From Acidovorax sp. Leaf78 (lineage in GTDB: Bacteria > Pseudomonadota > Gammaproteobacteria > Burkholderiales > Burkholderiaceae_C), in NCBI RefSeq assembly GCF_001422735.1, contig NZ_LMLZ01000012.1:468517-532516 (forward strand): a stretch of 64,000 nt of DNA. Direction: 5' to 3'. The notes under the pieces were generated by a model. It had not been told where the DNA came from. It saw only the letters and a list, made by a program, of their open reading frames with translations, and made no database searches. The stretch's first letter is position 1. The number at the start of each line of letters is the position of its first letter. This document shows positions 7,445-49,297 of this stretch, piece by piece. The position numbers and the translations under genes are program-made.

Positions 7445-8324
7445 CGATACCTGGAAGTCATCCGTTCAAGAGGCGGTTCGTTATCTAGGGCTGAAGCGTG
7501 CTCCACCCTACTTCAACGATGGAAGGACCTATCACTATGACGTTGGAGTGGTGGTTGCTCTCGAAGGAGAGGAGCTCGAGGGCATCCGGAAGCTACCTTT
7601 TGACTGGACGGAATGTCCCGTTGCACACGACCCCTCTCGTTATTTCATCGGTACGGTTGTCACGCCCACTCGCTCGTTGAGGATTGTCGCAGTAGCGTCT
7701 CCGCGGATGGGACTGACTCCTGCGGCAATAACAGCAACTAAGCTCATTTCTTTATTTAGGCCGCGTATGCTTGTGATGACCGGAATATGTGCTGGCGTTC
7801 GAGGAAAGTCGGCTCTTGGCGATATTTTGGTTGCAGACCCATGTTTCGATTGGGGTGGCGGTAAGTGGATATTTGACAAGCTTTCTGGAAAGCAGAGTTT
7901 TTTGCCGGCGCCGTACCAATGGAGATTGAATGAGTCTGTGCGCTCGGCGGTGCGCGCCGCTGGTGACGATGCGGAGCTAATGGCGGACGTGCACGCCTCG
8001 TTTAAGGGGGGAAAGCCTGCTTCGCCGCCCAAGGTAATAATTGATGCTATGGCGAGCGGCGCCGCAGTCCTTCAATCCCAGCAAGCGATGGATGAGGTTC
8101 GTGCTCAGCACAAGAATCTGGTCGGCATCGAGATGGAAAGCTATGCTGTTTTTTGCGCAGCCGAATATGCGGGAAATCCGCAGCCTCTTGTTTTGTCGCT
8201 TAAATCCGTGTGCGACTTTGGAGACGATAAGAAAAGCGATGATTTCCACGAGTATTCTGTCTTTACAAGTTCGGAGTTCCTTCGGGGACTTTTGATGAGT
8301 GATCGCGTCCCAATCGGATATTAA
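7407..8324 (+). CDS. phosphorylase-superfamily nucleosidase with truncated receiver domain (Detocs DtcC-like remnant)
   Basis: 305 residues from the first ATG. From about residue 44 (YDVGVVVALEGEELEGI) it is a PNP/UDP-phosphorylase-superfamily nucleosidase, with MTGICAGVRGKSALGDILVA and the ribose-binding VGIEMESYA. The start of the ORF (SMPLWKLLVFS, DTWKSSVQEAVRYL) and the same-frame codons just upstream (YVIGLTAYADG) look like the last strand and helix of a response-regulator receiver domain. Receiver-nucleosidase fusions are the effectors (DtcC) of the Detocs anti-phage system and cleave ATP. The phospho-acceptor half is absent, and no kinase or DtcB partner is adjacent. AT-richer than its neighbours; probably a relic. 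Confidence 0.65.
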   Translation: MPLWKLLVFSFSNDTWKSSVQEAVRYLGLKRAPPYFNDGRTYHYDVGVVVALEGEELEGIRKLPFDWTECPVAHDPSRYFIGTVVTPTRSLRIVAVASPRMGLTPAAITATKLISLFRPRMLVMTGICAGVRGKSALGDILVADPCFDWGGGKWIFDKLSGKQSFLPAPYQWRLNESVRSAVRAAGDDAELMADVHASFKGGKPASPPKVIIDAMASGAAVLQSQQAMDEVRAQHKNLVGIEMESYAVFCAAEYAGNPQPLVLSLKSVCDFGDDKKSDDFHEYSVFTSSEFLRGLLMSDRVPIGY

Positions 8325-8650
8325 TTAAGAGCGCATCGCATACAGTTGCAGCGGCTATCCACATAGCCCACCAGTCGGATCAAGGAACTGTTGCCGCATC
8401 GCTGGGCACCCTTGGCTGTGGCTCACTGCCAGCTCGGCTAAGTCAAGATGACTTCGCCGGACACTTACCCGTCGAGCGGCCGACAGGCCACTTGGCCGGC
8501 TGCATCGCGCACGAAAACGGTCGTCGCTACTGGCACTGCTGCACGCATACGTATGACGGCTTCACGCGCCGCAGCGTGAAGTTAGCGACCTGCCGAGTAA
8601 GAGCGCTTCCGCTGCGCTGAGGCCACCAGGAGAACAACAGATACCGTTTG
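8325..8650. other. non-coding gap between nucleosidase and recombinase
   Basis: About 330 bases with no supported gene. Short frames exist on both strands but lack ribosome binding sites or recognisable motifs. It may contain the recombination edge of the foreign patch. Confidence 0.4.
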
Positions 8651-9703
8651 TCAAAGCAACTTCGCAGCTGGGTTGTCATTGGAAGGGCGGTAGTAGCCCA
8701 CAACGCTGGCAACGCTCCTGTGCCCCGTCATCGCCATCGTGTCTGCCAAAGGCACTTTCTGGACAGCCGCCTCAGTCACAAATCCAGACCTCAGCGAGTG
8801 CGCAGAAAACACCTCCGGCAGCCCGGCAAGTTTTACTCGCTCTCGAACAATATCCCGCACGGCGGCAGGGGAGAGGGGTTCACCAAGGTGACTGCCTTTC
8901 CTGACCTGCCTGAATATTGCTCCGTCCACGATGCCCGAAGTCGTCAACCAGGTCTGCAGAGCTTCACCTGCAATGCCCTCCAGCGGCTTCACGTTCTCCG
9001 GACGATCCGCCGCAGTCTGGTTGCTCTTGGAATAGGCGAGGGTGTAGGTGAAGCTGCTCGGCCCCACGCGGTGAAGATTCTTCATCGTCGCCCCGGTCAC
9101 TTCAGAGCGGCGGCGCCCGCCCGACGCCCAGGCAAAGAGGAGGAGGGCGCGGTCACGGATGCCCTTGAGTGATTCGTCGCAGGTGTCGAGGATGGCCATC
9201 AATGGGTCCTTGGTCAGCGCATCCTTCTTCTTAGGAAGCTCGCCGCGTTTACCGTAGGCCCGGCGAGTCTTGGCCAACAATTCGCGGACTTTGGGGTCCT
9301 GGCAAGGGTTTTTCAGCTCTCGGAGCTGGTGGGCCTTGGACAGCACGGCAATCCGGTGGATCAAGGTATTGAGCGCCATCGGGCCCGGTTTGCCTTTGAA
9401 TCCCGCATCCACCAGCGCTTGGTCAATGGCTGGCGGTAGCTCGTGAGCCAGGCCATCGGCGGTCGTCCGCTGTGCGTGATCCACGATGAACTGCAGGACG
9501 GCGTTCGCAGGCAGCGGCAGCGTGATGCCTTGCCCGTACCGAACGCCAAACCAGGCAACCCAGTAGCGCAGCGCAGAGCGATAGCTGGCCAGCGTGTTCA
9601 CGGACTCGCCCTCGCGCATCAACTCCTCAACAGCCTTCGCGGTCACTTGCGACAGTGAAGAGGGCTCCAGCGAGGAGCTATTTCTCAGAGACGGCAGGCG
9701 CAT
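8651..9703 (-). CDS. tyrosine recombinase/integrase
   Basis: 350-residue site-specific recombinase. The N-terminal SAM-like core-binding domain covers about residues 20-150 (EGESVNTLASYRSALRYWVAW). The catalytic domain has the first Arg in ASGGRRRSEV (about 197-199), HSLRSG (H302, R305), TGHRS (H328) and the nucleophile Tyr in VVGYYRPS (337/338). All catalytic positions are present, so it could be active. It is divergent from a KfrA-like gene across a 130-base AT-rich spacer with repeats. This type is common on plasmids and integrated islands; the target site is unknown. Confidence 0.9.
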   Translation of the reverse strand: MRLPSLRNSSSLEPSSLSQVTAKAVEELMREGESVNTLASYRSALRYWVAWFGVRYGQGITLPLPANAVLQFIVDHAQRTTADGLAHELPPAIDQALVDAGFKGKPGPMALNTLIHRIAVLSKAHQLRELKNPCQDPKVRELLAKTRRAYGKRGELPKKKDALTKDPLMAILDTCDESLKGIRDRALLLFAWASGGRRRSEVTGATMKNLHRVGPSSFTYTLAYSKSNQTAADRPENVKPLEGIAGEALQTWLTTSGIVDGAIFRQVRKGSHLGEPLSPAAVRDIVRERVKLAGLPEVFSAHSLRSGFVTEAAVQKVPLADTMAMTGHRSVASVVGYYRPSNDNPAAKLL

Positions 9704-9833
9704 GGTTGAAATCAGTCTTGTGTAAGTAAAATTTCCATAAACACTAAATATGATGTATTGTTTACAACAACTTTTGTTGATAAGTCATGATAAGCATCGA
9801 TTATCGTGGGTAAAATTTTAGTGGAGTAGGGCG
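9704..9833. promoter_or_regulatory. AT-rich divergent control region with repeats
   Basis: The spacer between recombinase and kfrA-like genes. GTAAAATTT occurs as a direct repeat at 9726-9734 and 9810-9818, 84 bases apart. CAACAA and TTGTTG form a dyad around 9765-9779, and GATAA with TTATC another around 9790-9806. It probably holds both promoters and may be an operator for the KfrA-like protein or a recombination site. Confidence 0.45.
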
Positions 9834-10829
9834 ATGCAGTCAAAAATTGTGCGAGGCCCGCGTGGTGTGCAAACGGAAGAGGTCTGGGCAGCCGCCGACA
9901 CCGTTCTCAGACTCGGGGAGCGGCCGACGATCGAGCGCGTGCGCCAACAGCTCGGCCGTGGTTCCCCCAATACTGTGGGACCAATGCTTGATGGTTGGTA
10001 TGGCTCGCTGGCCCAGCGGCTGCATTCGCCGGTGGATGCATTTGAGCAAGATGGCGGCGCCGAAATCCCTTTGCCCGCGCCGGTTGTCAGGGCTGCAAAA
10101 GCCATCTGGGGCAGGGCCCTCCAGCACGCAGACGAGCGTGCAACGGCTCAATTCACTGAAGCTCGTAAAGAGCTGAGTGCGCAAGCCGAGACGTTACGCC
10201 AGGCGCAAGACCTCCTGGCACAGGAAACACAGCGCCTGACCGACCGAAGCGAAGCCTATGATCTGGCAATGCAGGCCAGGGATGCGCAGATCGCCGAGAT
10301 GAGCCGTCTTATCCAGGAGCTGCAGCAGCAACTTGCTGGAACCCAGGAAATGCTGGCTGCGTCACGCTCAGAGAGCAAGCAGCTCCGACTGGCAGCGGAT
10401 GCAGAGCGTCGGCGCCAAGAGGAAATGGAGATTAACCACCGGGGAGAACGCACGCGTCTAGAGGAGCGTGCGCAGGCTCAGGAGCGCAGACTTAATGCAG
10501 AGGTGGACCGTGCGCGCCAAGAATCGAAGCGGCTGACACTCAAACTGGAGGGCGACGCCCGGGAGTCTGCCAAGTCCTTGTCGGCTTCGCTGGAGAAAGC
10601 TCGAGAGCTGGAGGCCCTCGTGGGGGCACTGCAGGCGGAGAAAGCAGGTCTGGTCAAAGATCTGCACGCGGCCAGAGACGAGACGAAGGACTTGCGAGGA
10701 AAGCTTGAACAGCGCAGCACTGAGATGTTCGCCGTCCTCAACGAACTTCGCGATCGATTGCCGACTAGCGATTCGGTGAAGCCCACCGTGAAAACTCGCA
10801 AAGCAAGAGCGAGTAATCGCACTAGTTAA
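9834..10829 (+). CDS. KfrA-like DNA-binding coiled-coil protein
   Basis: 331 residues. The N-terminal part (about 10-110: VWAAADTVLRLGERPTIERV, LGRGSPNTVGPMLDGWYG) matches the KfrA_N DNA-binding domain of plasmid replication/partition regulators. It is followed by a long Gln/Glu/Arg-rich coiled coil (about 120-310) and a basic tail. KfrA proteins bind their own promoter and support stable plasmid inheritance. It stands divergent from a tyrosine recombinase, so the pair is probably a plasmid- or island-derived maintenance module. Confidence 0.85.
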   Translation: MQSKIVRGPRGVQTEEVWAAADTVLRLGERPTIERVRQQLGRGSPNTVGPMLDGWYGSLAQRLHSPVDAFEQDGGAEIPLPAPVVRAAKAIWGRALQHADERATAQFTEARKELSAQAETLRQAQDLLAQETQRLTDRSEAYDLAMQARDAQIAEMSRLIQELQQQLAGTQEMLAASRSESKQLRLAADAERRRQEEMEINHRGERTRLEERAQAQERRLNAEVDRARQESKRLTLKLEGDARESAKSLSASLEKARELEALVGALQAEKAGLVKDLHAARDETKDLRGKLEQRSTEMFAVLNELRDRLPTSDSVKPTVKTRKARASNRTS

Positions 10830-11279
10830 TCAATGAGCCTCCGCAGTTGCCAGTGCCAAGATGCGCTGCGCATTCACGCCTTGTTCTAGTGCGGTCCGCG
10901 GCGTCTCTCCGCCTAAAGCCAGTGCTCGTGTCTCTAAAAAGACCAGCACCTGCCAGCCATCAGTCGCGCAAAGAGCCGATGTCAGAGACTGCAGAACATT
11001 CCACACGTTGGGCTCTAACTGCCAGCGAGGCAATTTGTACTGACGGCATCGATCGAAAACGGCAATGCAGCGATGCGACTTGATCCACTCCTCAATCTCA
11101 TTCCGACTAGTCCCAGCCACCTCGGCCGCTTCCTCAATCGAGAGCATGTCGGCTGCGTCCATGCGGTCGCGCCGATACTTGTCGCCAGCGCGCAAAAAAC
11201 CCGCCGACTGTGCTGCGGACGCGTAGCAAGCCGATGAGCGACTTTTATCGGTCGAGAAGTTATCTGGCGGAGCCGTCAT
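10830..11279 (-). CDS. MbcA/ParS/Xre (DUF2384)-like domain protein
   Basis: 149 residues from the ATG at 11279 (MTAPPDNFSTDKSR). The middle, MLSIEEAAEVAGTSRNEIEEWI, looks like a helix-turn-helix. The C-terminal part, ATDGWQVLVFLETRALAL followed by GGETPRTALEQG, resembles the toxin-binding domain of Xre/MbcA/ParS antitoxins. No RES-type toxin is adjacent. It converges on the KfrA-like gene and appears to belong to the same foreign module. The frame stays open upstream to 11534 but that part has no domain character. An internal start (MDAADMLS) is also possible. Confidence 0.6.
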   Translation of the reverse strand: MTAPPDNFSTDKSRSSACYASAAQSAGFLRAGDKYRRDRMDAADMLSIEEAAEVAGTSRNEIEEWIKSHRCIAVFDRCRQYKLPRWQLEPNVWNVLQSLTSALCATDGWQVLVFLETRALALGGETPRTALEQGVNAQRILALATAEAH

Positions 11280-11683
11280 TCTGCCGAGATTACACGATGG
11301 GCTAAACGTGGATGCGACTTCTCCGGCATCTAGCGTTGAGGAGCGATCTCTGTTCCCGTGTCCCAAAAGATCGCGACAAGATTGGGCTCCCACGCCGAGT
11401 CCGCGTGCGACACGAAAGAGGTTCAAGTTTCCGGCCCAATTTCTGTCGGCCGTCTCCCGACGCCGCTGGCTTATCTGAGGGTACGTCCTAGATACCGCTT
11501 TAACGTACAACTTTCCTGTGCTTTTAGCGTACAAGTTTGCTTAGGTACTCGTTGTCGATGCCGTACAGGATGCCAATGTGTTCACGTCATTTAACATAAT
11601 ATACATCGTATAAAGTAAAACATGATGCATCTGACTTCACCGCCAACTGTCTGGACTCGTGCCATCACCGCTACCATCAAGCC
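11280..11683. other. gap with iteron-like repeats at the right edge of the foreign patch
   Basis: About 400 bases without a convincing gene. Two near-identical 18-mers start TTTAACGTACAA (11499-11516) and TTTAGCGTACAA (11523-11540), 24 bases apart. Downstream, TATAC and GTATA form a dyad at 11600-11612, a candidate operator in the promoter of the following dehydrogenase gene. Confidence 0.45.
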
Positions 11684-12487
11684 ATGACCATAACTTCCCA
11701 GCCCGCTCCTGCACACCCATCCAAAATTCACTTCGGCCACCAGGGCCGTGTCTGCATCGTCACGGGCGGCGCGCAAGGCATTGGCGAGGCTTGCGTGCGG
11801 CGGTTCGCGGCCGAAGGCGCCAAGCCGGTCATTGTGGATGTGGACGATGTTCGTGGCGCGGCGCTGGCGCAGGAACTGGGTGTGCTGTACGTGCACTGCG
11901 ATGTGGGCGAAAAATCCCAGGTGGACGCCCTGGTGGCACAGGTGCTGGCCGCCCACGGGCGCATCGACGTGCTGGTGAACAACGCCGGCATCTTCAGGGC
12001 TGCGGACTTTCTCGATGTGACCGAGGCGGATTTCGACGCTGTGCTGCGCGTCAACCTCAAGGGCTCCTTCCTGGTGGGCCAAGCCGTGGCGCGGGCCATG
12101 GTGGCATCCGGCGGCGGGTCCATCGTCAACATGAGCTCGGTGAACGGCGTGCTGACCATTCCCAGCATCTCCAGCTACAACGTGAGCAAGGGCGGCGTGA
12201 ACCAGCTGACCCGCGTCATGGCCCTGGCACTGGCGGACAAGAACATCCGCGTGAATGCCGTCGCGCCGGGCACCATCGCTACCGAGCTGGCTGCCAAGGC
12301 CGTGCTGACCAGCGATGACGCCAAGAACAAGATCCTGAGCCGCACGCCCATGAAGCGGCTGGGCGAGCCGTCGGAAATTGCCGATGTGGTGGCCTGGCTG
12401 GCGAGTGACGCGGCCAGTTACGTCACAGGTGAGATCGTCACGGTGGATGGCGGGCGGATGACGCTGAACTACACCGTGCCGGTGTAA
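11684..12487 (+). CDS. short-chain dehydrogenase/reductase
   Basis: 267-residue classical SDR oxidoreductase using NAD(P). Motifs are TGGAQGIG (cofactor loop), NNAG, the catalytic Ser in NMSSVNG and YNVSK (YxxxK), with a C-terminal VTGEIVTVDGG that is highly conserved in the family. The substrate cannot be told; it most resembles glucose 1-dehydrogenase/3-oxoacyl reductase-type SDRs. It stands alone and is followed by an interspersed repeat that may end its transcript. Confidence 0.92.
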   Translation: MTITSQPAPAHPSKIHFGHQGRVCIVTGGAQGIGEACVRRFAAEGAKPVIVDVDDVRGAALAQELGVLYVHCDVGEKSQVDALVAQVLAAHGRIDVLVNNAGIFRAADFLDVTEADFDAVLRVNLKGSFLVGQAVARAMVASGGGSIVNMSSVNGVLTIPSISSYNVSKGGVNQLTRVMALALADKNIRVNAVAPGTIATELAAKAVLTSDDAKNKILSRTPMKRLGEPSEIADVVAWLASDAASYVTGEIVTVDGGRMTLNYTVPV

Positions 12488-41019: not shown

Positions 41020-43158
41020 TCAAAACGCTACCTTTACCCCCACCGTCACGTTGCGCCCCATCAGCGGCGCCGCGTTCTTGATGAACGAGGTGTGCGCATA
41101 CGCCAGGCGGTCGGTCAGGTTGTTCGCCTTCACATACACCTGCCACGGTGTGCCGCCGCTGAACTGGCCGCTGTAGCTCACGCCCACATTCAGCATGCCG
41201 TACCCGGGCGTGGCGGTTTCGAACTCCGCCACACGACCCTGGCGGGCCACCTGCACCCATTCGACCTGGCCTTCCCAGGCGTTCCAGTTGCCGTCCAGGC
41301 GCAGGCCGGCGCGGGTGGCGGGGATGCGGGGCAGCAGGCCGCCGCCGGCCAGGCGCGCGCGCACGGTGTCGCCGAACAGGGTGATGCCGAAGTGGCGGTT
41401 CAGGCGCTGGCGCACCTGGCCTTCGATGCCGGTGAAGGTGGCGTCGGCCTGGCTGTACTGAAGCAGCTGCAGGCCATCGACCTCGTCCAGCGTGCGGCCG
41501 TAGATGTAGTTGCTGATACGGTTGCGGAACACGCTGACGCCGAAGGTGGTGTCGCCGCTGGTCTTCTTCAGGCTGACGTCGATGTTCTGCGAGATCTCGG
41601 AGCGCAGGTCGGGGTTGCCGCGCTCGTACGTGCTGGTGGCCATGTGCAGGCCCTGGGCGTACAGCTCTTCGGCCGACGGAGCCCGGCTGGCGCGGGTGAA
41701 CGAGGTGCCCACCTGGTAGCCGGGCGTGAACTTCCACACCGCACCCAGCGACGCGGACGTGCCGTTGTGGCTGCGCTCGATGCCGCTGGTCTGCGCCTCG
41801 GCCGTCTGGCGGTCGTGCCGCAGGGCGGCTTCGAAGCGCCAGTCGCCCAGGCGGTATTCCTCCAGTGCGAAGAAGCCGAGCTTGCGGGTGATGGTGGGCT
41901 CCACATAGGCCTCGTCGCCCTCGGCGCTGAACTTGCGCTGCGAGGTCTGCAGGCCGATCAGTCCCTTGAAGCCGGCGATGGGCTCGTGCTGCAGCTCGAT
42001 GCGGGTGTCGTAGGCCTTGTTCTTGAAGGTGGTGCTGATGGCGCCGTCCTCGACCTCGTCGTGCACGTAGTCGGTGACGCCGGCGCGCAGGCGCAGCGCC
42101 GAGAAGCCTGCAAAGGGGTTGCGCAGCTCACCGCGGATGTCGAAGCGTTCGCTGCGCAGGTCCACCACCGGCACGTCACCGGCCTCGGCGCCGTGGTCAT
42201 GGTCGTGGCCGTCCTCGCCTTCGTCGGCATGGGCACCGCAATGCAGGTGGTCGCCGTGGGTGTGGCAGCCCTCGAAGCTGTGGTTGTGGCCCGGCAGGCC
42301 GTACTTGGCAGTCTGGCGGGTGTAGGCCGCGCCCAGGTAGCCGCGGTCGCCCACCCACGACAGGCCCACGCTGCCGGTGTCGGTGCGGTTGAAGCTGCCC
42401 AGCACCTTGCGGGCGGGCTCGCCATTGGGCGCCCAGCCTTTGCCCACGCGGTAGTCGCTGGCGTCGCGCGAGACGCCTTCCACGTGCACGGCCAGGTTGC
42501 CAGTGCCGCCCGTGAGCGAAAAGGCCCCTGCCCCTTCGCGCGCGCCGGTGTTGGCGCGCAGCTCGGCGCTGCCTTCGTAGCCCTTCTCCGGCACGGCGGT
42601 GGGGATCTTGCCGTCCAGCACGTTGACCACGCCGCCCACGGCACCGTTGCCGTAGACCAGGGCCGACGGGCCGCGCAGCACCTCGATCTGCGTGGCCAGC
42701 AAGGGCTCGGACACCACCGCGTGGTCTGGGCTGATGGTGGAGGCATCGTGCAGCTCGGCCCCATCGGACAGCACCTTGACGCGCGGGCCGTCCATGCCGC
42801 GGATGATGGGGCGGCTGGCGCCCGCGCCGAAATGGCTGCTGGTGATGCCGGGCTCGCTGTTGAGCGTCTCGCCCAGCGTGGCCTCACGGCGGCGCACAAG
42901 CTCGTCGCCTTCCAGCACGGTGGCGGGCGTGGTCATCTCCGTGGCCCCCAGTTGCAGGCCGCTGGCAGACACGGTGACGGGCGGCAGGCTGGGCGCGGTA
43001 TCGGCCGACACCGGTGCCGATGGTGCCGCAGCAGGTGCGGCCTGCGCATGCGCGATGCCGGTGCCCGACAGCGCCAGCATGGCCGCGAAGGCCACGGGAC
43101 GAAGGGCTGGGCAGCTGCGGTGGGCGGCAGAACGGGGGGCGAGAAGGGTGTGTGTCAT
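41020..43158 (-). CDS. ZnuD-like TonB-dependent outer-membrane receptor
   Basis: 712 residues. It has a signal peptide ending near IAHAQA, a plug domain (LGETLNSEPGITSSHFGAGA, RPIIRGMDGPRVKVLSDG, EVLRGPSALVYGNGAVGGVV) and a beta-barrel ending with F. An extracellular loop at about 287-327 is crowded with His, Asp, Glu and Cys (GHNHSFEGCHTHGDHLHCG, then DGHDHDHG), the hallmark of zinc receptors like ZnuD. It lies downstream of Zur and a Zrg-type ABC system on the same strand. The start at 43158 gives the proper signal; an upstream ATG at 43191 is less likely. Confidence 0.9.
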   Translation of the reverse strand: MTHTLLAPRSAAHRSCPALRPVAFAAMLALSGTGIAHAQAAPAAAPSAPVSADTAPSLPPVTVSASGLQLGATEMTTPATVLEGDELVRRREATLGETLNSEPGITSSHFGAGASRPIIRGMDGPRVKVLSDGAELHDASTISPDHAVVSEPLLATQIEVLRGPSALVYGNGAVGGVVNVLDGKIPTAVPEKGYEGSAELRANTGAREGAGAFSLTGGTGNLAVHVEGVSRDASDYRVGKGWAPNGEPARKVLGSFNRTDTGSVGLSWVGDRGYLGAAYTRQTAKYGLPGHNHSFEGCHTHGDHLHCGAHADEGEDGHDHDHGAEAGDVPVVDLRSERFDIRGELRNPFAGFSALRLRAGVTDYVHDEVEDGAISTTFKNKAYDTRIELQHEPIAGFKGLIGLQTSQRKFSAEGDEAYVEPTITRKLGFFALEEYRLGDWRFEAALRHDRQTAEAQTSGIERSHNGTSASLGAVWKFTPGYQVGTSFTRASRAPSAEELYAQGLHMATSTYERGNPDLRSEISQNIDVSLKKTSGDTTFGVSVFRNRISNYIYGRTLDEVDGLQLLQYSQADATFTGIEGQVRQRLNRHFGITLFGDTVRARLAGGGLLPRIPATRAGLRLDGNWNAWEGQVEWVQVARQGRVAEFETATPGYGMLNVGVSYSGQFSGGTPWQVYVKANNLTDRLAYAHTSFIKNAAPLMGRNVTVGVKVAF

Positions 43159-43221
43159 GGTGGTGCTTGCTTGCAACGGGCAGGTGCGCACCGCAATGGC
43201 AAAGCCAGGTGTGCGGCGCGC

Positions 43222-43247
43222 GGCTTTACGCCATGGGGCGTAAAGCC
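43222..43247. promoter_or_regulatory. perfect 11-bp inverted repeat upstream of the zinc receptor
   Basis: GGCTTTACGCC (43222-43232) and GGCGTAAAGCC (43237-43247) flank a four-base centre. It lies 64 bases before the receptor start. It may be an operator or an RNA hairpin; it does not resemble the palindrome before zur. Confidence 0.5.
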
Positions 43248-43253
43248 ATGAAC

Positions 43254-43310
43254 AAAAATGGCCTCCAGCGCTTGATGGTCAAGCGCTAGCAGCTATGAAA
43301 TCAGGAGTTA
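43254..43310 (-). repeat. interspersed repeat, copy 4
   Basis: Inverted relative to the other copies: on the minus strand it reads CATAGCTGCTAGCGCTTG, then CAAGCGCTGGAGGCC and T5. It lies between the DUF2946-like gene and the receptor gene, oriented with both. Confidence 0.75.
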
Positions 43311-43476
43311 ACTGAAGGAAGAAGCAGTGACGGCCGCGATAAACGGCGGCCCGTGGTCGCGCCTACGGCTGCACGGCGATCCCATCCGATCAAGTGCGGT
43401 GCAGTGCTGTCAGGCGACAAGGCTCAGGCAGGCACTGGACGGGCCAGCCGCCAAAGAGCCTGGGGCGTGGTGCTTC

Positions 43477-43950
43477 TCAGCCCCGAGGCGGGCCGCGCGC
43501 CTGGAACAGCGCGACATGCGCAGCGGCGGTGCGCAGCGCATGGTCGGCAGGCGGTGCGTGCGCAGGCACCGCGTCGGGCAGCGCCAGGGTGGCACTGTGC
43601 AGGGCATCGCCCAGCGCAAGCTGGTCGAGCAAAAGGCAATCCACGGGCGCGTGCTGCCCCAGGAACAGCGACCAGAGCCCGTGGCCGTGGGACGCAGCGG
43701 GCAGCGGCGCGGCATTGGCCGTGCCAGAGGCTGTCGCTGCCGATGCCAAGGGCAACGAAGACGCCAGGGCCGCGCTGTGCGCCAGCGCCTGCCCGGCATG
43801 CACCCGGTCCAACGCGCCGCCGTGCGCCACCTGGTGCAGCCGCCCCAGTGTCGGCACCACCACCAGGGCCAGCAGCAGCCACGCCAGCGCCAGCCGCACC
43901 AGGGCCTGGGTCTGCAGGCGGCCCGTCCACCGGCCCACACCGCCCGGCAT
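43477..43950 (-). CDS. DUF2946-like membrane-anchored protein
   Basis: 157 residues from ATG 43950. One N-terminal hydrophobic segment (ALVRLALAWLLLALVVVPTL) is followed by LHQVAHGG, an Ala-rich middle and conserved late elements HGHGLWSLFLGQHAPVDCLL, DQLALGDALHS and ALFQARGPPRG. The His and Cys residues and the FQARGPP end fit the DUF2946-type proteins often found beside metal-uptake receptors. It lies between DUF3299 and the zinc receptor. The frame stays open upstream to a TTG at 44088, so the start is uncertain. Confidence 0.65.
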   Translation of the reverse strand: MPGGVGRWTGRLQTQALVRLALAWLLLALVVVPTLGRLHQVAHGGALDRVHAGQALAHSAALASSLPLASAATASGTANAAPLPAASHGHGLWSLFLGQHAPVDCLLLDQLALGDALHSATLALPDAVPAHAPPADHALRTAAAHVALFQARGPPRG

Positions 43951-44106
43951 CTGCCAAGGCGCACCCTGCCCCGCGCTGCGGCGGGCAGGCGATGGCAGAT
44001 GCCGGCGTGGGCGGGATGGAACAGTCACGACAAGATGCAGTGCAAAAACGAAAGGGAATCCACCATTGAGGCAAGGCGCATGGCGCAAAACGCTGCGCCC
44101 CTGCGA

Positions 44107-44703
44107 TTATTTCACCGGCACGGCCTCCACCACGCGGTAATACAGGCCGTACTGGTCATTGTGGAGCACGGTGAACTTGCCCTCGACCACCACGGGCTCC
44201 ATCGAATAGCGCACGGGGGTCTTGGCCTTCACCTCGACCATGCTCTCGGGCCCCCCCGGCAGGCAGAACGAGCAGGTCAGCGGCACCGAAGTGAGCAGAA
44301 AGTGCGTCTGCGTGGCCTTGGCATCCAGCGGCATCATGAAACCCTGGATGCGCTGCGTGGTCTTGTCCATGCCCTTTTGCGCATCGCTGAACACGGGCAG
44401 GATGCCGTCCTTGGTGGTCTTCTTGGTCAGGTCGGTCAGCACCGACCAAGGAATCACATCCGTGCGCTGGGGCAGCGGCGCGATGGGACTGTTCGGGCTG
44501 TGATACCCCGCCCCCGAGCCCGACGGCACACCCGCCACCGGCGCTCCACCAGCACCCGCCGGCAACGGCGAACTGAGCACGGGCGCTGCGGAAGGCTTGG
44601 CTTGTGCCAGCGCGGTGCCAGAGACACCGACACCCAACGCCAGGGCCAAAGGCAGAGCGATAGAGCGCCCGGGCACAAACCGAGGCAACAAACGATGGTG
44701 CAT
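44107..44703 (-). CDS. DUF3299 exported protein (ZrgD-like)
   Basis: 198 residues with a signal peptide (SIALPLALALGVGVSGTALA). The DUF3299 domain has DVIPWSVLTDLTKK, RIQGFMMPLDAKATQTHFLL and the CSFCLPGGPESMVEVK motif, a likely metal- or thiol-active CxxC. In Vibrio, a DUF3299 protein belongs to the Zrg zinc uptake operon. Here it follows a Zur-ABC group and precedes the ZnuD-like receptor, which supports a role in periplasmic zinc handling. Confidence 0.85.
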   Translation of the reverse strand: MHHRLLPRFVPGRSIALPLALALGVGVSGTALAQAKPSAAPVLSSPLPAGAGGAPVAGVPSGSGAGYHSPNSPIAPLPQRTDVIPWSVLTDLTKKTTKDGILPVFSDAQKGMDKTTQRIQGFMMPLDAKATQTHFLLTSVPLTCSFCLPGGPESMVEVKAKTPVRYSMEPVVVEGKFTVLHNDQYGLYYRVVEAVPVK

Positions 44704-44861
44704 ATAAATCCCTTCCGTGAACGCCCTGCAAACACAAGGCCAGCCATTCCATCACCGCATCAACGCTGTCGATCAGCGGCTTGATTCCCCCCGAGCTTAT
44801 TTGCGGCTGCGCACTGCAAAACCGGCGCGCCCCCATACCAGTGCCCCCGTGGAACCGGCTC

Positions 44862-44920
44862 CGCCGGGCCACCGGGGGCGTCCCCCTCAGGGGGAAGGCG
44901 CGTAGCGCCTCAGGGGGAGC
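44862..44920. repeat. GC-rich palindromic repeat (REP-like)
   Basis: Composed of CCCCCTCAGGGGG, then GGCGCGTAGCGCC and CTCAGGGGG, giving nested hairpins. It sits just downstream of the small secreted protein gene. The type resembles repetitive extragenic elements in related genomes; only one copy was noticed in this window. Confidence 0.5.
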
Positions 44921-44921
44921 A

Positions 44922-45179
44922 TCAGTGCACGTGGCGCATCCCACAATACTTGCCAATCCCCAGACCCTTGCACGCGGTCTGGAGTTCCTTCTGGCAGGTG
45001 TCGTGGTCCTTGCCGGATTCCAGGCACTTGGCAGCGGCCTCGTGCGCGGCGGCCATGGCCCGGTGGCGCTCGATGTCGGCCTTGGTTTCCTTGTCGGAAT
45101 GCGCGCCCTGCGCGTTGGCCACGGCACCGGCCAACAGCAGCAATGGCACCAGGGCCAGGGTGGTGAACAGTTTTTTCAT
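44922..45179 (-). CDS. small secreted Cys/His-rich protein
   Basis: 85 residues with a Sec signal (KKLFTTLALVPLLLLAGAVA, cut near ANAQG). The mature part of about 60 residues holds four Cys (AKCLES, DTCQKE, TACKGL, KYCGM), seven His and a C-terminal MRHVH. A good ribosome binding site (GAAAGG) precedes the ATG. It lies 74 bases after the FtsX-type permease in the Zur-led gene run. I do not recognise a named family. The metal-ligand-rich composition and position suggest a periplasmic zinc carrier. Confidence 0.8.
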   Translation of the reverse strand: MKKLFTTLALVPLLLLAGAVANAQGAHSDKETKADIERHRAMAAAHEAAAKCLESGKDHDTCQKELQTACKGLGIGKYCGMRHVH

Positions 45180-45253
45180 GAAGAACCTTTCGAAGGATGG
45201 GGAGTGAAGTGAATGAAACGAAATGAACTGACGTGAAATGAAGAAGAGGAAGC

Positions 45254-46489
45254 TCAGGGCTGGCTCAGCAGGTCCGCCACCTCGGTGCGGTAGGCCTGCA
45301 TGGCTGGCAACAGCGCCGCCAGCGCCGCCACGGCACCGGCCAGCAGCGGCACGCCCGCCTCGGCCGGCAGCCACACCAGGCCGCTGACCGGCAGCAGGCC
45401 TTGAGACTGCAGCACCCAGCCCAGCGTGTGCGCCAGGGCGTGGCCCATCAGCAAGCCCAGGGCCGACGCCATGGCGGCCAGCCACAGCGCCTCCCACAGC
45501 ACCAGCCCGGCCACGCGGCCGGGGGGGGCGCCCAGCATGCGCAGCATGGCCAGGTCGGCCCGGCGCTCGCGCACCGCGTTCCACAGCGCAATGAACACGC
45601 TGAGCGCGGCCACGGCCAGCAGCACGCCGCCAAACGCGCGCAGCACATCGGCTCCCACACCCAGCAGGCGCAGCAGGCGCGTCACCTCGATGGCGGGCGC
45701 GGCGGCCTGCAAGGCGGTGTCGGCATTGATCTGGCGCGGCAGCGTGACGGCGGCCAGGGGCGTGCGGTAGCGCAGCAGTGCCACGGTCACTTCGCGCTCT
45801 TCCTTCAATATCTCCAGGTCCTCGGGCTCGGTGGCCGTGGCGGTCTCGTGCACCATCCAGACGGATTCGGTGCTGGTCAGCACAAGGCGGTCGAGCACGC
45901 AGGCGCAAGGCGCCAGCACGCCGCTCACGCGGTAGGGATGGTCGCCGTGCGCGTGCCCTCCCCCGCCCAGGCCGTGGCTGCCGATGAAGGTGGCGCCCAC
46001 CAGCGGCGCACCGCCGTGGTCGGGCTTGACAATGCCGCGCGCCACGCTGGCGCCCAGCACGGCGTCCATGGGCTGCTGCCACAAGCCGCCTTCGGCCAGG
46101 GTGGCGCCGTAGTGCGACACATAGTCCGGCGTGGTGCCCACGATGCGGTAGCCCTGGTAGCTGTCGCCCAGGCTCAGCGGGATGACCTGCGCCACCAGCG
46201 GGTTCTTTTGCAGCGCCTGCACCTCTTGCAGCGGGATGTTGCCCGTGGGCACGTCGATGTGGAACACGCCCGCCAGGATCAGTTGCAGCGGGCTGCCCTT
46301 GGCGCCCACCACCAGGTCGATGCCGTCGAGGTCGCGCTCAAAAGCTGTGTCGAGCTGCGTGGCCACCAGCAGCACCAGCGTGATGGCGGCCAGGCCCAGC
46401 GTGAGCACCAGCAGGTTGAGCACGGCGGCCAGCGGACGGGACCACAGGTAGCGCCATGACAGGGATGCGAGCTTTACTATGTTTTTCAT
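45254..46489 (-). CDS. FtsX-type ABC permease (ZrgC-like)
   Basis: 411 residues of the FtsX/MacB permease fold. One N-terminal helix (AVLNLLVLTLGLAAITLVLL) is followed by a large periplasmic domain (about 45-275), then three C-terminal helices (VLLAVAALSVFIALWNAVRE onward). The periplasmic part includes a His-rich stretch GSHGLGGGGHAHGDHPYR and CAC. The start overlaps the ATPase stop by four bases. With Zur and the ATPase it forms a zinc-related ABC module like ZrgBC. Confidence 0.88.
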   Translation of the reverse strand: MKNIVKLASLSWRYLWSRPLAAVLNLLVLTLGLAAITLVLLVATQLDTAFERDLDGIDLVVGAKGSPLQLILAGVFHIDVPTGNIPLQEVQALQKNPLVAQVIPLSLGDSYQGYRIVGTTPDYVSHYGATLAEGGLWQQPMDAVLGASVARGIVKPDHGGAPLVGATFIGSHGLGGGGHAHGDHPYRVSGVLAPCACVLDRLVLTSTESVWMVHETATATEPEDLEILKEEREVTVALLRYRTPLAAVTLPRQINADTALQAAAPAIEVTRLLRLLGVGADVLRAFGGVLLAVAALSVFIALWNAVRERRADLAMLRMLGAPPGRVAGLVLWEALWLAAMASALGLLMGHALAHTLGWVLQSQGLLPVSGLVWLPAEAGVPLLAGAVAALAALLPAMQAYRTEVADLLSQP

Positions 46490-47166
46490 AGCTGGTTGCG
46501 CCCGTCCAGAGCGCGGTGGGCCGCTGTTTCATTCAAATCCAGCTGCTGCGCGCCGGCCAGCGCCTGCACCACGCGCTGGTCGTGCGTGGCGATGACCAGG
46601 CTGGCGCCACACGCGGCGGCGCTGCGCTGCAGCAGGGACAGCGCGTCGGCGGCGGCTTCGTCGTCCAGGCTGGCGGTGGGTTCGTCGGCCAGCAGCAGCT
46701 CGGGCGCCAGCAGCACCGCCCGCGCCAGCGCCACGCGCTGCGCCTGCCCGCCCGAGATCTGGTGCGGCTTGCGCGCGGCCAGCTCTGCCACACCCAGTTG
46801 CGCCAGCGCGCGGGCTATTGCAGAGTCGTCGCGCGGCAGCCCGGCTGCAAAGTAGACCAGGCCCAGGTTGTCCGCCACGGTGAGCGCGCTGGACAGGTGC
46901 AGCTTTTGCGGCAAGAACCCGATGCTGCGCGCGCGCCAGGCATCGAGCTCCGCGCCGCGCTGCGTGCCCAGCTGCAGGCCGCCCACGAACAGGTCACCGC
47001 CGCTCGCGCCGCGCAGGCCGGCAATGAGCGACAGCCAGGTGGACTTGCCCGTGCCCGAACGGCCGCGCAGCAGCAGCGTGCCGCCCTGGTTCAGGTCCAC
47101 ATCCGGAAAGCGCAGCGGCGCATCGCCCGTGGGGTAGGTGTAGGCAAGCCCTCGGGTCCGGATCAT
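46486..47166 (-). CDS. ABC transporter ATP-binding protein (ZrgB/LolD-like)
   Basis: 226 residues. Walker A is RGRSGTGKSTWLSLIAGL, the Q-loop area is FLPQKLHLSSAL, the signature ISGGQAQRVALARAV, and Walker B ELLLADEPTASLDDEA with ATHDQRV. This is the ATPase type that partners FtsX/MacB permeases. The start at 47166 overlaps the Zur stop by four bases, and its own stop overlaps the permease start, so three genes are translationally coupled. Confidence 0.9.
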   Translation of the reverse strand: MIRTRGLAYTYPTGDAPLRFPDVDLNQGGTLLLRGRSGTGKSTWLSLIAGLRGASGGDLFVGGLQLGTQRGAELDAWRARSIGFLPQKLHLSSALTVADNLGLVYFAAGLPRDDSAIARALAQLGVAELAARKPHQISGGQAQRVALARAVLLAPELLLADEPTASLDDEAAADALSLLQRSAAACGASLVIATHDQRVVQALAGAQQLDLNETAAHRALDGRNQL

Positions 47167-47642
47167 GCCGCCGCGCCCTCGGCAGGGTGCGCGCAGCCCG
47201 CGCAGCGGCCCCGCACGGCGATGTCCACCGCCAGGCTCTCGTGCCCTGCGGTGGCCAGCGCCTGCAGCACCTGCTTCAACGCTGTCTGCACCTTGGCAGA
47301 GCCTTGCGACAGGCGGAACTGGCGGTGGCAGTCGTCGCATTCAAAGCGCGGTGCAGCGCCGTCCTCGCCTTGGGGTGCGAGCGCATACCGCGTCACGCGG
47401 GCGGCATCCACCTGCTTGTGCAGCAGTCCGGCCGCGGCAAAACGGTCGAGCATGCGATAGACGGTGACTTTGTTGACCGGGGCGCCGGCAGTGGCCAGGG
47501 CGGCCTCGACTTCGGGTTCGGAGAAGGCTGCGTCTGGGCGGGCTGCGTACAGCGCTGCCAGTGCGCGTGTGGCACGGGTCGCACGCATACCTGCGGGCAG
47601 CGACCAAGTGGGGCTGGATGGGCGTGAAGACGTGGCAGGCAT
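47163..47642 (-). CDS. zur: Fur family zinc uptake regulator
   Basis: 159 residues. The winged-helix recognition region is GAPVNKVTVYRMLDRFAAAG, and the C-terminal domain has FECDDCHRQ and CAGCAHP, the two CxxC pairs that hold structural zinc. It leads a coupled operon with an ABC transporter, and a good palindrome lies just upstream, so it probably represses its own operon when zinc is sufficient. The start at 47642 (MPATSSRPSSPTW) is the best of several; there is no strong ribosome binding site. Confidence 0.9.
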   Translation of the reverse strand: MPATSSRPSSPTWSLPAGMRATRATRALAALYAARPDAAFSEPEVEAALATAGAPVNKVTVYRMLDRFAAAGLLHKQVDAARVTRYALAPQGEDGAAPRFECDDCHRQFRLSQGSAKVQTALKQVLQALATAGHESLAVDIAVRGRCAGCAHPAEGAAA

Positions 47643-47667
47643 GGACAGCGATGGGCAAGCAGAGTGG

Positions 47668-47690
47668 ATAACGCAATCGGGTTGCATTAT
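47668..47690. promoter_or_regulatory. palindrome upstream of zur, probable Zur box
   Basis: ATAACGCAA (47668-47676) and TTGCATTAT (47682-47690) form an inverted repeat (8 of 9 pairs) around TCGGG, 26 bases before the zur start. Position and AT-type half-sites fit an autoregulatory Fur-family operator. Confidence 0.6.
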
Positions 47691-47801: not shown

Positions 47802-48290
47802 CTAGATGCGCAGCATCAGCGTCATGGGATGCAGGGGCGATTCCTTGAACCCGTAGTGCTCGTAAAAACGCTTGGCTTTCTCATGCAACGCGTGGACGAG
47901 AACGGCACGAACCCCGGCGTTTTGCGACACCGCCACGGCCCTGTGCACGGCATCCTGCAGCAGTGCGCCCCCCAGTTGAAGGCCCTGGGCCTGCCGGGCG
48001 ACCGCGAGCCGCGCCAGCACCATCACAGGAATGGGGTCCGGCATATTGCGGCGCACGCCGCTGGTCGCCATCTGGTGCGACACAGCGCCTGCCGCCATGG
48101 CGTAGTAACCCACGACACGCCCGTCAGCGCCTGCCACCACGAACGTGCGGCTTGCCCCGCTCAATTGATTGGCCAGAGCGCGGCGCTTGAGCCAGTCATC
48201 GAGCGTAGGCTCTCCGCAGGCAAAACCGTCGAGCTGATGGTGGGTGGCCAGAGGCTGTGGCGCACTGCACTGCAAACCCATGCCGCTCAT
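47802..48290 (-). CDS. GNAT toxin of a type II toxin-antitoxin pair (TacT-like)
   Basis: 162-residue acetyltransferase. Family features are LDGFACGEPTLDDWLKRRAL at the start, TFVVAGADGRVVGYYAMAAG, and the acetyl-CoA region VLARLAVARQAQGLQLGGAL with YEHYGFKESP. TacT-type toxins acetylate aminoacyl-tRNA and stop translation. It is five bases after a DUF1778 antitoxin gene, the usual partner and order. Both genes appear intact. Confidence 0.9.
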   Translation of the reverse strand: MSGMGLQCSAPQPLATHHQLDGFACGEPTLDDWLKRRALANQLSGASRTFVVAGADGRVVGYYAMAAGAVSHQMATSGVRRNMPDPIPVMVLARLAVARQAQGLQLGGALLQDAVHRAVAVSQNAGVRAVLVHALHEKAKRFYEHYGFKESPLHPMTLMLRI

Positions 48291-48295
48291 GCTGC

Positions 48296-48559
48296 TTACG
48301 CGGTCCAGGGAGCCTTGACGGCCATGAGTCGTTCCAAACCTTCGTTGGAGGTACGGGGGGCGTCCAGCAGGGCTGTGAACTGCTTGAACTTGTCTGTATC
48401 CAGGCTGAAGAACACCTGATCGAGCACCACAGCCTGCGCGCGGTCACAAGCCGCTTCCAGCATGAAATCGGAGCGGTTTTTGCCGAGCAGGCTGGCCGCA
48501 TGGTCGATCAAGTCACGTTGCTCGGGCAGCGCCCTGAGATTGATGGCAGCGTCGCGCAT
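48296..48559 (-). CDS. DUF1778 ribbon-helix-helix antitoxin (TacA-like)
   Basis: 87 residues from MRDAAINLRALPEQ with an AGGAG before the ATG. The N-terminal ribbon-helix-helix (NLRALPEQRDLIDHAASLLG, SDFMLEAACDRA) binds DNA, and the C-terminal tail (LDAPRTSNEGLERLM) binds the toxin. Two dyads built on TGTAT lie upstream and are probable autoregulatory operators. An upstream ATG in the same frame is less likely. Confidence 0.9.
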   Translation of the reverse strand: MRDAAINLRALPEQRDLIDHAASLLGKNRSDFMLEAACDRAQAVVLDQVFFSLDTDKFKQFTALLDAPRTSNEGLERLMAVKAPWTA

Positions 48560-48570
48560 GGCAACTCCTG

Positions 48571-48626
48571 TGTGTATGCAATAGATACACAAACTTTAGA
48601 TCAATGTATATCCGTTGTCAATACAT
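48571..48626. promoter_or_regulatory. two dyads, probable antitoxin operators
   Basis: TGTGTAT and ATACACA (48571-48577, 48585-48591) and ATGTAT and ATACAT (48604-48609, 48621-48626) lie directly before the antitoxin start. They share the TGTAT half-site and fit cooperative binding by a ribbon-helix-helix protein. Confidence 0.6.
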
Positions 48627-48661: not shown

Positions 48662-49204
48662 TCAACCCTTCACGTACCGCGCAAACGTCTTCCTGAACTT
48701 CTCCACCTTCGGCCCCACCACAAACGCGCAGTAACCCGCATTCGGGTTCCGCGCAAAGTAGTCCTGGTGGTAGGCCTCGGCCGTGCTGTAGTTCTGCAGC
48801 GGCTTGACCTCGGTGGTGATGGGCGCGCCGAACAGCTTGTCCTGCGACATCTGGCGGATCATCGCGTTGGCTGCCTCGCCATCCTCGGGCTTGTCGAAGT
48901 AGATGCCGCTGCGGTACTGCGTGCCCACGTCGTTGCCCTGGCGGTTGAGGGTGGTCGGGTCGTGGGTGTGAAAGAAGATTTCCAGCACTTCTTCCAGGCT
49001 GATCTCGTCAGCGTCGTACGTCAGCCGCACCACCTCGGCGTGGCCGGTGTCGCCCTGGCAGATCTGCTCGTAGGTGGGGTTGATGGTCTGGCCGTTGGTG
49101 TAGCCGCTTTCCACGTCGGTGATGCCGCGCACGCGGTCGAACACGGCCTCGGTGCACCAGAAGCAGCCGCCGCCCAGGGTGATGGTTTGAAGGTTCTGTG
49201 CCAT
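48662..49204 (-). CDS. msrA: peptide methionine (S)-S-oxide reductase
   Basis: 180 residues. The active site is GGGCFWCTEAVF (catalytic C14), with the family motifs SGYTNGQTINPTYEQICQG, GHAEVV, FFHTHDPTTLNRQGNDVGTQ and QDYFARNP. It repairs oxidised methionine using thioredoxin. The start at 49204 has GGAG six to nine bases upstream; a second ATG four codons earlier is possible. Confidence 0.96.
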   Translation of the reverse strand: MAQNLQTITLGGGCFWCTEAVFDRVRGITDVESGYTNGQTINPTYEQICQGDTGHAEVVRLTYDADEISLEEVLEIFFHTHDPTTLNRQGNDVGTQYRSGIYFDKPEDGEAANAMIRQMSQDKLFGAPITTEVKPLQNYSTAEAYHQDYFARNPNAGYCAFVVGPKVEKFRKTFARYVKG

Positions 49205-49297
49205 GTGGGTCTCCATGCGATGAATGGTTTCAGGGGCATGGTACGCGGCGCCCGGTAACGCAGTGCGGGCGGGGGCATTGGGCCGCCCGCTGGTTCG

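Follow-up and report, generated by a model that had tools for sequence, protein, structure and literature searches.

A probable Zur-controlled zinc-scarcity operon without ZrgA in Acidovorax sp. Leaf78 encodes a conserved small Cys/His protein

Introduction

The function of Zrg-type systems is disputed, with zinc import proposed in Vibrio and metallophore export in Pseudomonas. Reports on ZrgABCDE of Vibrio cholerae and V. parahaemolyticus describe a zinc transporter whose binding protein is likely to be ZrgA (PMC9817125, PMC9820375), and ZrgD is reported to be missing in some Vibrionaceae (PMC9817125). For the Pseudomonas aeruginosa operon PA4063-PA4066, micromolar zinc sites have been reported in PA4063 (PMC8561739), and export of a pyochelin-cobalt complex has been argued (PMC11481552). 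Here, we analyze a related gene run in Acidovorax sp. Leaf78, which lies on the minus strand from 47642 to 41020 of a 64,000-nucleotide stretch of contig NZ_LMLZ01000012.1 (hereafter the window, to which all positions refer). In order, the run encodes a Zur-like regulator, an ATP-binding cassette (ABC) ATPase, a permease, an 85-residue protein that we call p85, a DUF3299 protein, a small His-rich protein and a ZnuD-type TonB-dependent receptor.

With ZrgABCDE the run shares the ATPase, the FtsX-type permease, the DUF3299 protein (ZrgE) and Zur control. It differs in that no ZrgA (DUF2796) was hit in the genome, in that p85, a linked Zur gene and a ZnuD-type receptor are part of the run, and in that its permease, although homologous (31-44% identity class), belongs to another clade than the tested ZrgA-associated ones; in addition, the ZrgD family (DUF2607) gave no match up to E 1 among the eight window proteins scanned. 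The MacB-type pair and the protein of the PA4066 family (4hsp) are common to the run and to the proposed pyochelin-cobalt exporter PA4063-PA4066, whereas the run contains p85 and no relative of PA4063 (ZrgA). The receptor resembles ZnuD of Neisseria meningitidis (4rdr) in its TonB receptor family, four zinc ligands and a His-rich loop, but it falls below the NCBIfam ZnuD cut-off and is encoded with a Zrg-like set. Finally, the Zur-controlled znuCBA-cobW genes carry the same box and are divergent from the operon in relatives, whereas in Leaf78 ZnuA was not found and the sole exact Zur box stands at the Zrg-like operon. Such a bacterium, and a conserved p85 family, are what the locus adds to present knowledge; among the matches listed in our literature search, titles and abstract openings pointed to no paper on p85 or on a ZrgA-less form. 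The variant also separates constant parts (the ATPase, a permease with a set of Asp and His residues, and DUF3299) from a changing part, ZrgA or a different small Cys/His protein, and thereby makes the question of import or export testable.

Results and discussion

We read the run as a Zur-controlled operon for zinc scarcity, and probably as a relative of the Zrg/PA4063-PA4066 system that lacks ZrgA. Judged from its sequence, the operon belongs to a set of genes for zinc starvation in bacteria of soil and water, and we regard zinc as the metal, and Zur control of the operon, as very likely. An initial annotation, made from the letters alone, had named Zur, an ATPase, an FtsX-type permease, DUF3299 and a receptor, and gene order, coordinates and Pfam domains agree with it. 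The features are as follows.

47669-47689, no strand: exact match (0 mismatches) to the Zur box TAAYGCAA-N5-TTGCRTTA; the zur start codon lies 26 bases downstream
47163-47642, minus strand: divergent Fur-family regulator, read as Zur; FUR domain match and two CxxC motifs
46486-47166, minus strand: ABC ATPase, ZrgC-like; Pfam ABC_tran; its start overlaps the zur stop
45254-46489, minus strand: permease of predicted MacB/FtsX (type VII) fold, ZrgB-like; Pfam FtsX and MacB_PCD, five invariant Asp/His residues
44922-45179, minus strand: p85, 85 residues, apparently secreted; conserved Cys and His, no named family
44107-44703, minus strand: DUF3299 protein (PA4066 family); Pfam DUF3299, conserved CxFCxPGGPES motif
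43477-44013, minus strand: small His-rich protein in which inspection by eye shows a hydrophobic stretch; no Pfam match, start codon uncertain
41020-43158, minus strand: ZnuD-type TonB-dependent receptor; four ZnuD zinc ligands matched, His-rich loop at residues 290-323

Regulator binding had been expected just upstream of the run, and a conserved palindrome lies there, at 47669-47689. It is the sole site with three or fewer mismatches in the window. The genome (5.75 Mb in 26 contigs) has no other exact match and one 2-mismatch site elsewhere, and 428 kb of Markov-shuffled loci contained no site with two or fewer mismatches. Of 115 loci found, the best 80 were named and are therefore close relatives; six of these were cut by contig ends and set aside, leaving 74 scorable for regulator and box counts. 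A box (≤ 2 mismatches) was present in every scorable locus with the regulator (45/45) and in none of those without it (0/29). In one locus (L107), boxes lie between the operon and divergent znuC, znuB, znuA and cobW (Pfam and box search), and znuB and znuA are divergent from the operon in 7 of the 80 named loci. Across a survey of 200 genomes of the family, the box (≤ 1 mismatch) occurred at 46 sites in 32 genomes, 8 near a permease only, 6 near ZnuA only and 10 near both, compared with one site in each of three genomes for the reversed pattern. By eye, the box also precedes a cobW gene in L213 and a TonB receptor in L186, and in L201 it has znuCB on one side and a regulator of this type on the other. 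The window regulator is the weakest match among the four Fur-family genes of the genome (FUR domain, 24.3 bits; Pfam cut-off 23.1), and both of its CxxC motifs, four Cys in all, are invariant in 45 of 45 sequences (the window and 44 loci).

The receptor points to the same metal. It matches the Pfam TonB-receptor plug and barrel, and its closest solved relative is ZnuD (4rdr; E 8.2e-114), in which the buried zinc ligands are reported to be Asp99, His100, Glu340 and His499 (PMC4557270). In a HMMER alignment to 4rdr, with the ligands placed by hand, D145, H146, E368 and H505 match these four, and they are kept in all 50 receptors found, 20 of which are only 32-36% identical. The initial description of a ZnuD-like receptor thus holds for the nearest structure and the ligands, but the protein scores 676.7 bits against a cut-off of 950 on the NCBIfam ZnuD model (model type 'exception') and so does not reach that family assignment. 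The His-rich stretches described for both receptor and permease are present. The kept zinc ligands led us to reject a copper or haem receptor.

ZrgA had been noted as absent from the run, and none was found in the whole genome either: a profile search with PF10986 gave no hit. The same profile matched none of 14 control genomes and 39 of the 200 family genomes, 34 of them above cut-off, which indicates that the search works. A search of the genome for ZnuA (PF01297) also gave no hit, where the control matched in 11 of the 14 genomes and ZnuA was found in 84 of the 200 family genomes. Two ZIP loci are present in the genome.

The protein p85 had been described as a secreted 85-residue protein with four Cys and seven His. 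Its length and Cys count are correct, but it has six His, and it is apparently secreted, from the look of its N-terminus. In 16 comparisons over the last 55 codons, differences at codon positions 3, 1 and 2 numbered 342, 113 and 110, so that p85 is under purifying selection and is a real gene. It occurs in 53 of the 200 family genomes (E ≤ 0.001), more than expected by chance. Among 99 distinct sequences, H39, H46, C52, C62 and C70 are invariant; C79 and H83 are found in 98, and the remaining sequence is truncated at a contig end. Five more distant members (L152, L163, L174, L175 and L176) keep all seven Cys and His by eye. No Pfam or NCBIfam family matched the window protein above cut-off, and p85 is a new conserved small protein family without a name in any library searched. 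Its AlphaFold model is a helical hairpin after an N-terminal hydrophobic stretch, of modest confidence (mean predicted local distance difference test score, pLDDT, 76), and gave no match to PDB folds at E ≤ 0.001. We rejected weak Pfam matches below cut-off (Conotoxin, 19.6 vs 25.1 bits; DUF6488, 15.1 vs 27 bits) and a single PDB sequence match at E 0.21. Conotoxin weakly matched 23 of 43 members (best E 0.00038), which we ascribe to chance from the signal peptide and the Cys pattern.

In a survey of the phylum, 11 of 398 genomes matched p85 and 8 were kept, three matches at E 0.003-0.006 being rejected as chance. Outside the family, p85 was found in 2 of the 398 genomes, from one other family; in these (L174, L175) it follows DUF3299, and one of the two contigs also carries the permease. 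Within the family, 8 of 53 p85 loci are not beside a permease. Four of these settings (L155, L156, L157 and L159) place p85 beside a ZnuD-type receptor with no relatives of the ABC genes near, and in L162 it lies at a contig end beside DUF3299. In another genome (L176), a regulator, p85, a small His-rich protein and a receptor occur together, and the 16 kb covered contain no relatives of the ABC genes. A tblastn search also found p85 on three Antarctic Polaromonas plasmids, and in both of those inspected, pE19SP1 (L152) and pE10SP1 (L153), its gene is flanked by those for ZnuA and a TonB receptor, and two 1-mismatch boxes lie upstream. On pE19SP1 the set spans 8276-12305, behind two tandem boxes and 0.55 kb without a clear gene. 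By gene neighbourhood, then, p85 is linked to zinc genes in several different arrangements. We consider that p85 probably binds zinc in the periplasm, where it would act as a carrier or buffer of the ZnuD pathway.

Permease relatives (E ≤ 1e-20) were found in 102 of the 200 family genomes; the nearest named relative among the matches listed is Acidovorax sp. Leaf191, at 99% permease identity. We split the loci at 44% identity into 62 close-class and 42 distant-class permeases; five split matches entered without their second pieces, and one short match was reassigned to the distant class. Adjacency meant within 500 bases for p85 and within 3 kb for ZrgA. On this basis p85 adjoins 45 of the 62 close-class permeases and none of the 42 distant ones, and ZrgA adjoins 0 of 62 and 27 of 42, respectively; a Fisher p of ~1e-5 for the association ignores kinship and is not used here as support. 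By genome, 53 of the 200 carry p85, 34 carry ZrgA and none carries both. In G013, a close permease and ZrgA occur in one genome, but there ZrgA adjoins a second, distant permease. In a tree of 49 permeases, rooted by our choice on a Deinococcus sequence, 20 p85-type and 9 ZrgA-type tips separate; the node that unites every p85-type tip (support 0.981) includes no ZrgA tip and 10 tips with neither, and the placement of L240, a very long branch, is not trusted.

Both classes keep D109, H172, H181, D200 and H214 of the permease (84 of 84 p85-class and 16 of 16 ZrgA-class sequences, excluding the three distant loci L236, L240 and L242), and four of the five residues are present in all of four further sequences. 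They may constitute a metal site or functional site in the periplasm. Only p85-class permeases commonly carry a CxC motif (53 of 72 sequences with p85, 10 of 12 without), the ZrgA class having TGT there. A Catenovulum plasmid locus (L243, 2621-6558) encodes a related ATPase and permease with a divergent DUF3299 and a cytochrome c gene; neither ZrgA nor p85 was found there, which suggests a third form of the system.

The DUF3299 protein scores 27.9 bits against a Pfam cut-off of 22, and its profile matches 4hsp (E 0.0015), which is PA4066 (PMC8561739). DUF3299 proteins of the clade share an invariant C-x-F-C-x-P-G-G-P-E-S motif, and the aligned 4hsp has one of its two Cys. For the small His-rich protein, the earlier DUF2946-like label could not be upheld: it has no Pfam match up to E 1 and nothing above cut-off in NCBIfam, and three proteins at this position in other loci have no Pfam match up to E 0.01. 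A stretch resembling H-x(2,4)-C-x-L-x-D is shared, by eye, between the small His-rich protein of the window and those of L107, L120, L156, L157 and L176.

Several observations weigh against reading the run as a zinc-scarcity operon with a p85 zinc carrier, and we consider them here together with the explanations that they favor. The regulatory zinc site of E. coli Zur is His/Cys/His/Glu. In the divergent regulator the first-position His is not invariant, and an alignment to 7dh7 shows no Cys at the second position; its 45 sequences lack an invariant canonical Fur/Zur regulatory His set, and its closest solved relatives are weak matches (best E 0.00037). Furthermore, 22 of the 46 box sites in the 200 genomes are near neither a permease nor ZnuA, and the receptor ligand count covers ZnuD-type receptors alone. 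Such a sensor site, and receptor matches to haem, B12 and copper receptor models, albeit far below cut-offs, would fit copper, cobalt, manganese or iron as the metal. Given the ZnuD ligands in 50 of 50 receptors and the same box at znuCBA and cobW, we attach very little credence to a metal other than zinc.

Seven of the 22 sites, in five loci, were inspected by eye. Two are those before cobW (L213) and the TonB receptor (L186) named above. Five lie between TetR-like and MFS genes (L205, L207, L210), a setting for which we took them as the palindrome of another regulator rather than as Zur boxes. They resemble TAACGCAA-N5-TTGCGTTA or TTGCTTTA, are doubled about 46 bases apart in two of the three loci, and probably belong to another regulon with a look-alike box.

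Neither regulator nor box was found in 29 of the 74 scorable loci. Of the 80 named loci, 34 have no regulator hit, and in 23 of them the ATPase directly follows msrA and is not under a box; zinc control by the box is therefore not universal. These loci raise the prospect that the system and MsrA form a unit for oxidative envelope repair, to which the zinc link would be secondary: besides the 23 loci in which msrA is the immediate upstream neighbor of the ATPase, 35 more of the 80 have it elsewhere in the locus, and in L143 the msrA stop and the ATPase start overlap (other direct examples are L111, L122 and L129). Yet the regulator, where present, heads the operon with its own box, and receptors in msrA-coupled loci (e.g. 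L122) keep their zinc ligands, leaving a repair unit an improbable explanation.

For p85, 17 of the 62 close-class permeases have no adjacent copy, although in some of these loci the permease match is split or cut and the genome G083 has p85 elsewhere, and p85 stands alone in L158, L160 and L161. Since p85 is missing beside these permeases, and also occurs with a receptor without the transporter and, on plasmids, between ZnuA and a receptor, it is no simple replacement for ZrgA. Four Cys in a helical hairpin are a common layout for disulfide-braced helices. With its four conserved Cys in a predicted hairpin, and a model that, at modest confidence, shows no metal site, p85 could, rather than carry zinc, be a partner with two disulfides that supports the structure or folding of the receptor or of DUF3299. 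However, H39, H46 and H83 are as well conserved as the Cys, with 92 of 99 sequences keeping the last His, and it is hard to see why a protein with a structural role alone would need these His. A structural role appears unlikely to us, and a zinc-binding p85 remains our preference.

The permease model (pLDDT 79.6) has MacB, LolCDE and HrtBA as its best Foldseek matches, a fold class of exporters and periplasmic machines rather than the membrane fold of an ABC importer with a solute-binding protein, and the sequence profile matched only five chains, from a non-canonical ABC permease, YtrF and LolF. The ABC pair might accordingly be an exporter or extruder that is switched on in zinc scarcity and exports either a metal-ligand complex or some periplasmic client, with p85 and DUF3299 as periplasmic adaptors, as the pyochelin-cobalt export reported for PA4063-PA4066 would suggest. 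Set against this, a general Pfam scan of the eight window proteins matched no metallophore-synthesis or MacA-like family, and zrgA of V. cholerae is reported to be essential to operon function in zinc-deficient growth (PMC9820375). We see export as a minority possibility. Because of this fold, and because the related P. aeruginosa operon has been argued to be an exporter, we entertain direct zinc import through the permease only tentatively. Of the variant zinc importer with a new periplasmic carrier that had first been proposed, zinc and the Zrg-related set are thus supported, while a straight exchange of ZrgA for p85 is not.

Under our preferred reading of a zinc-scarcity operon, Zur would leave its box when zinc is scarce, and the receptor would pull Zn2+ across the outer membrane. 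In the periplasm, p85 would take the incoming Zn2+ through its conserved His and Cys and buffer it or pass it on. The ATPase could drive movements of the periplasmic domain of the permease, with its own Asp and His set, and so load or unload zinc carriers, and the DUF3299 protein may be a helper of this step. Zinc would then enter the cytoplasm via the permease, a ZIP carrier or, in relatives, ZnuABC. A bolder version, which we offer as speculation, is that p85 represents a new family of zinc metallochaperones that are secreted and serve ZnuD-type receptors, and that the Zrg-type ABC pair is an ATP-driven periplasmic machine, not an importer, with unrelated and exchangeable zinc clients, ZrgA in one clade and p85 in the other.

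Within the run, the regulator, ATPase and permease genes overlap at stop and start, and the gaps after the permease are, in gene order, 74, 218, about 93 (the start codon being uncertain) and 318 bases. The region has about as many terminator-like sites as chance would give (4 found vs 4.3 expected) and a search for a promoter-like site at the operon head found none, so the run is neither demonstrably cut nor proven to be a single transcript. Upstream of it lie three further genes.

47802-48290, minus strand: GNAT gene
48296-48592, minus strand: TacA1-type gene
48662-49216, minus strand: msrA, a frequent upstream neighbor, not claimed as a working part

The TacA1-type antitoxin and GNAT acetyltransferase pair (47802-48592, minus strand) thus sits between msrA and the operon, and looks like an inserted toxin-antitoxin module, with a guanine-cytosine content of 0.63 compared with 0.69 in the operon.

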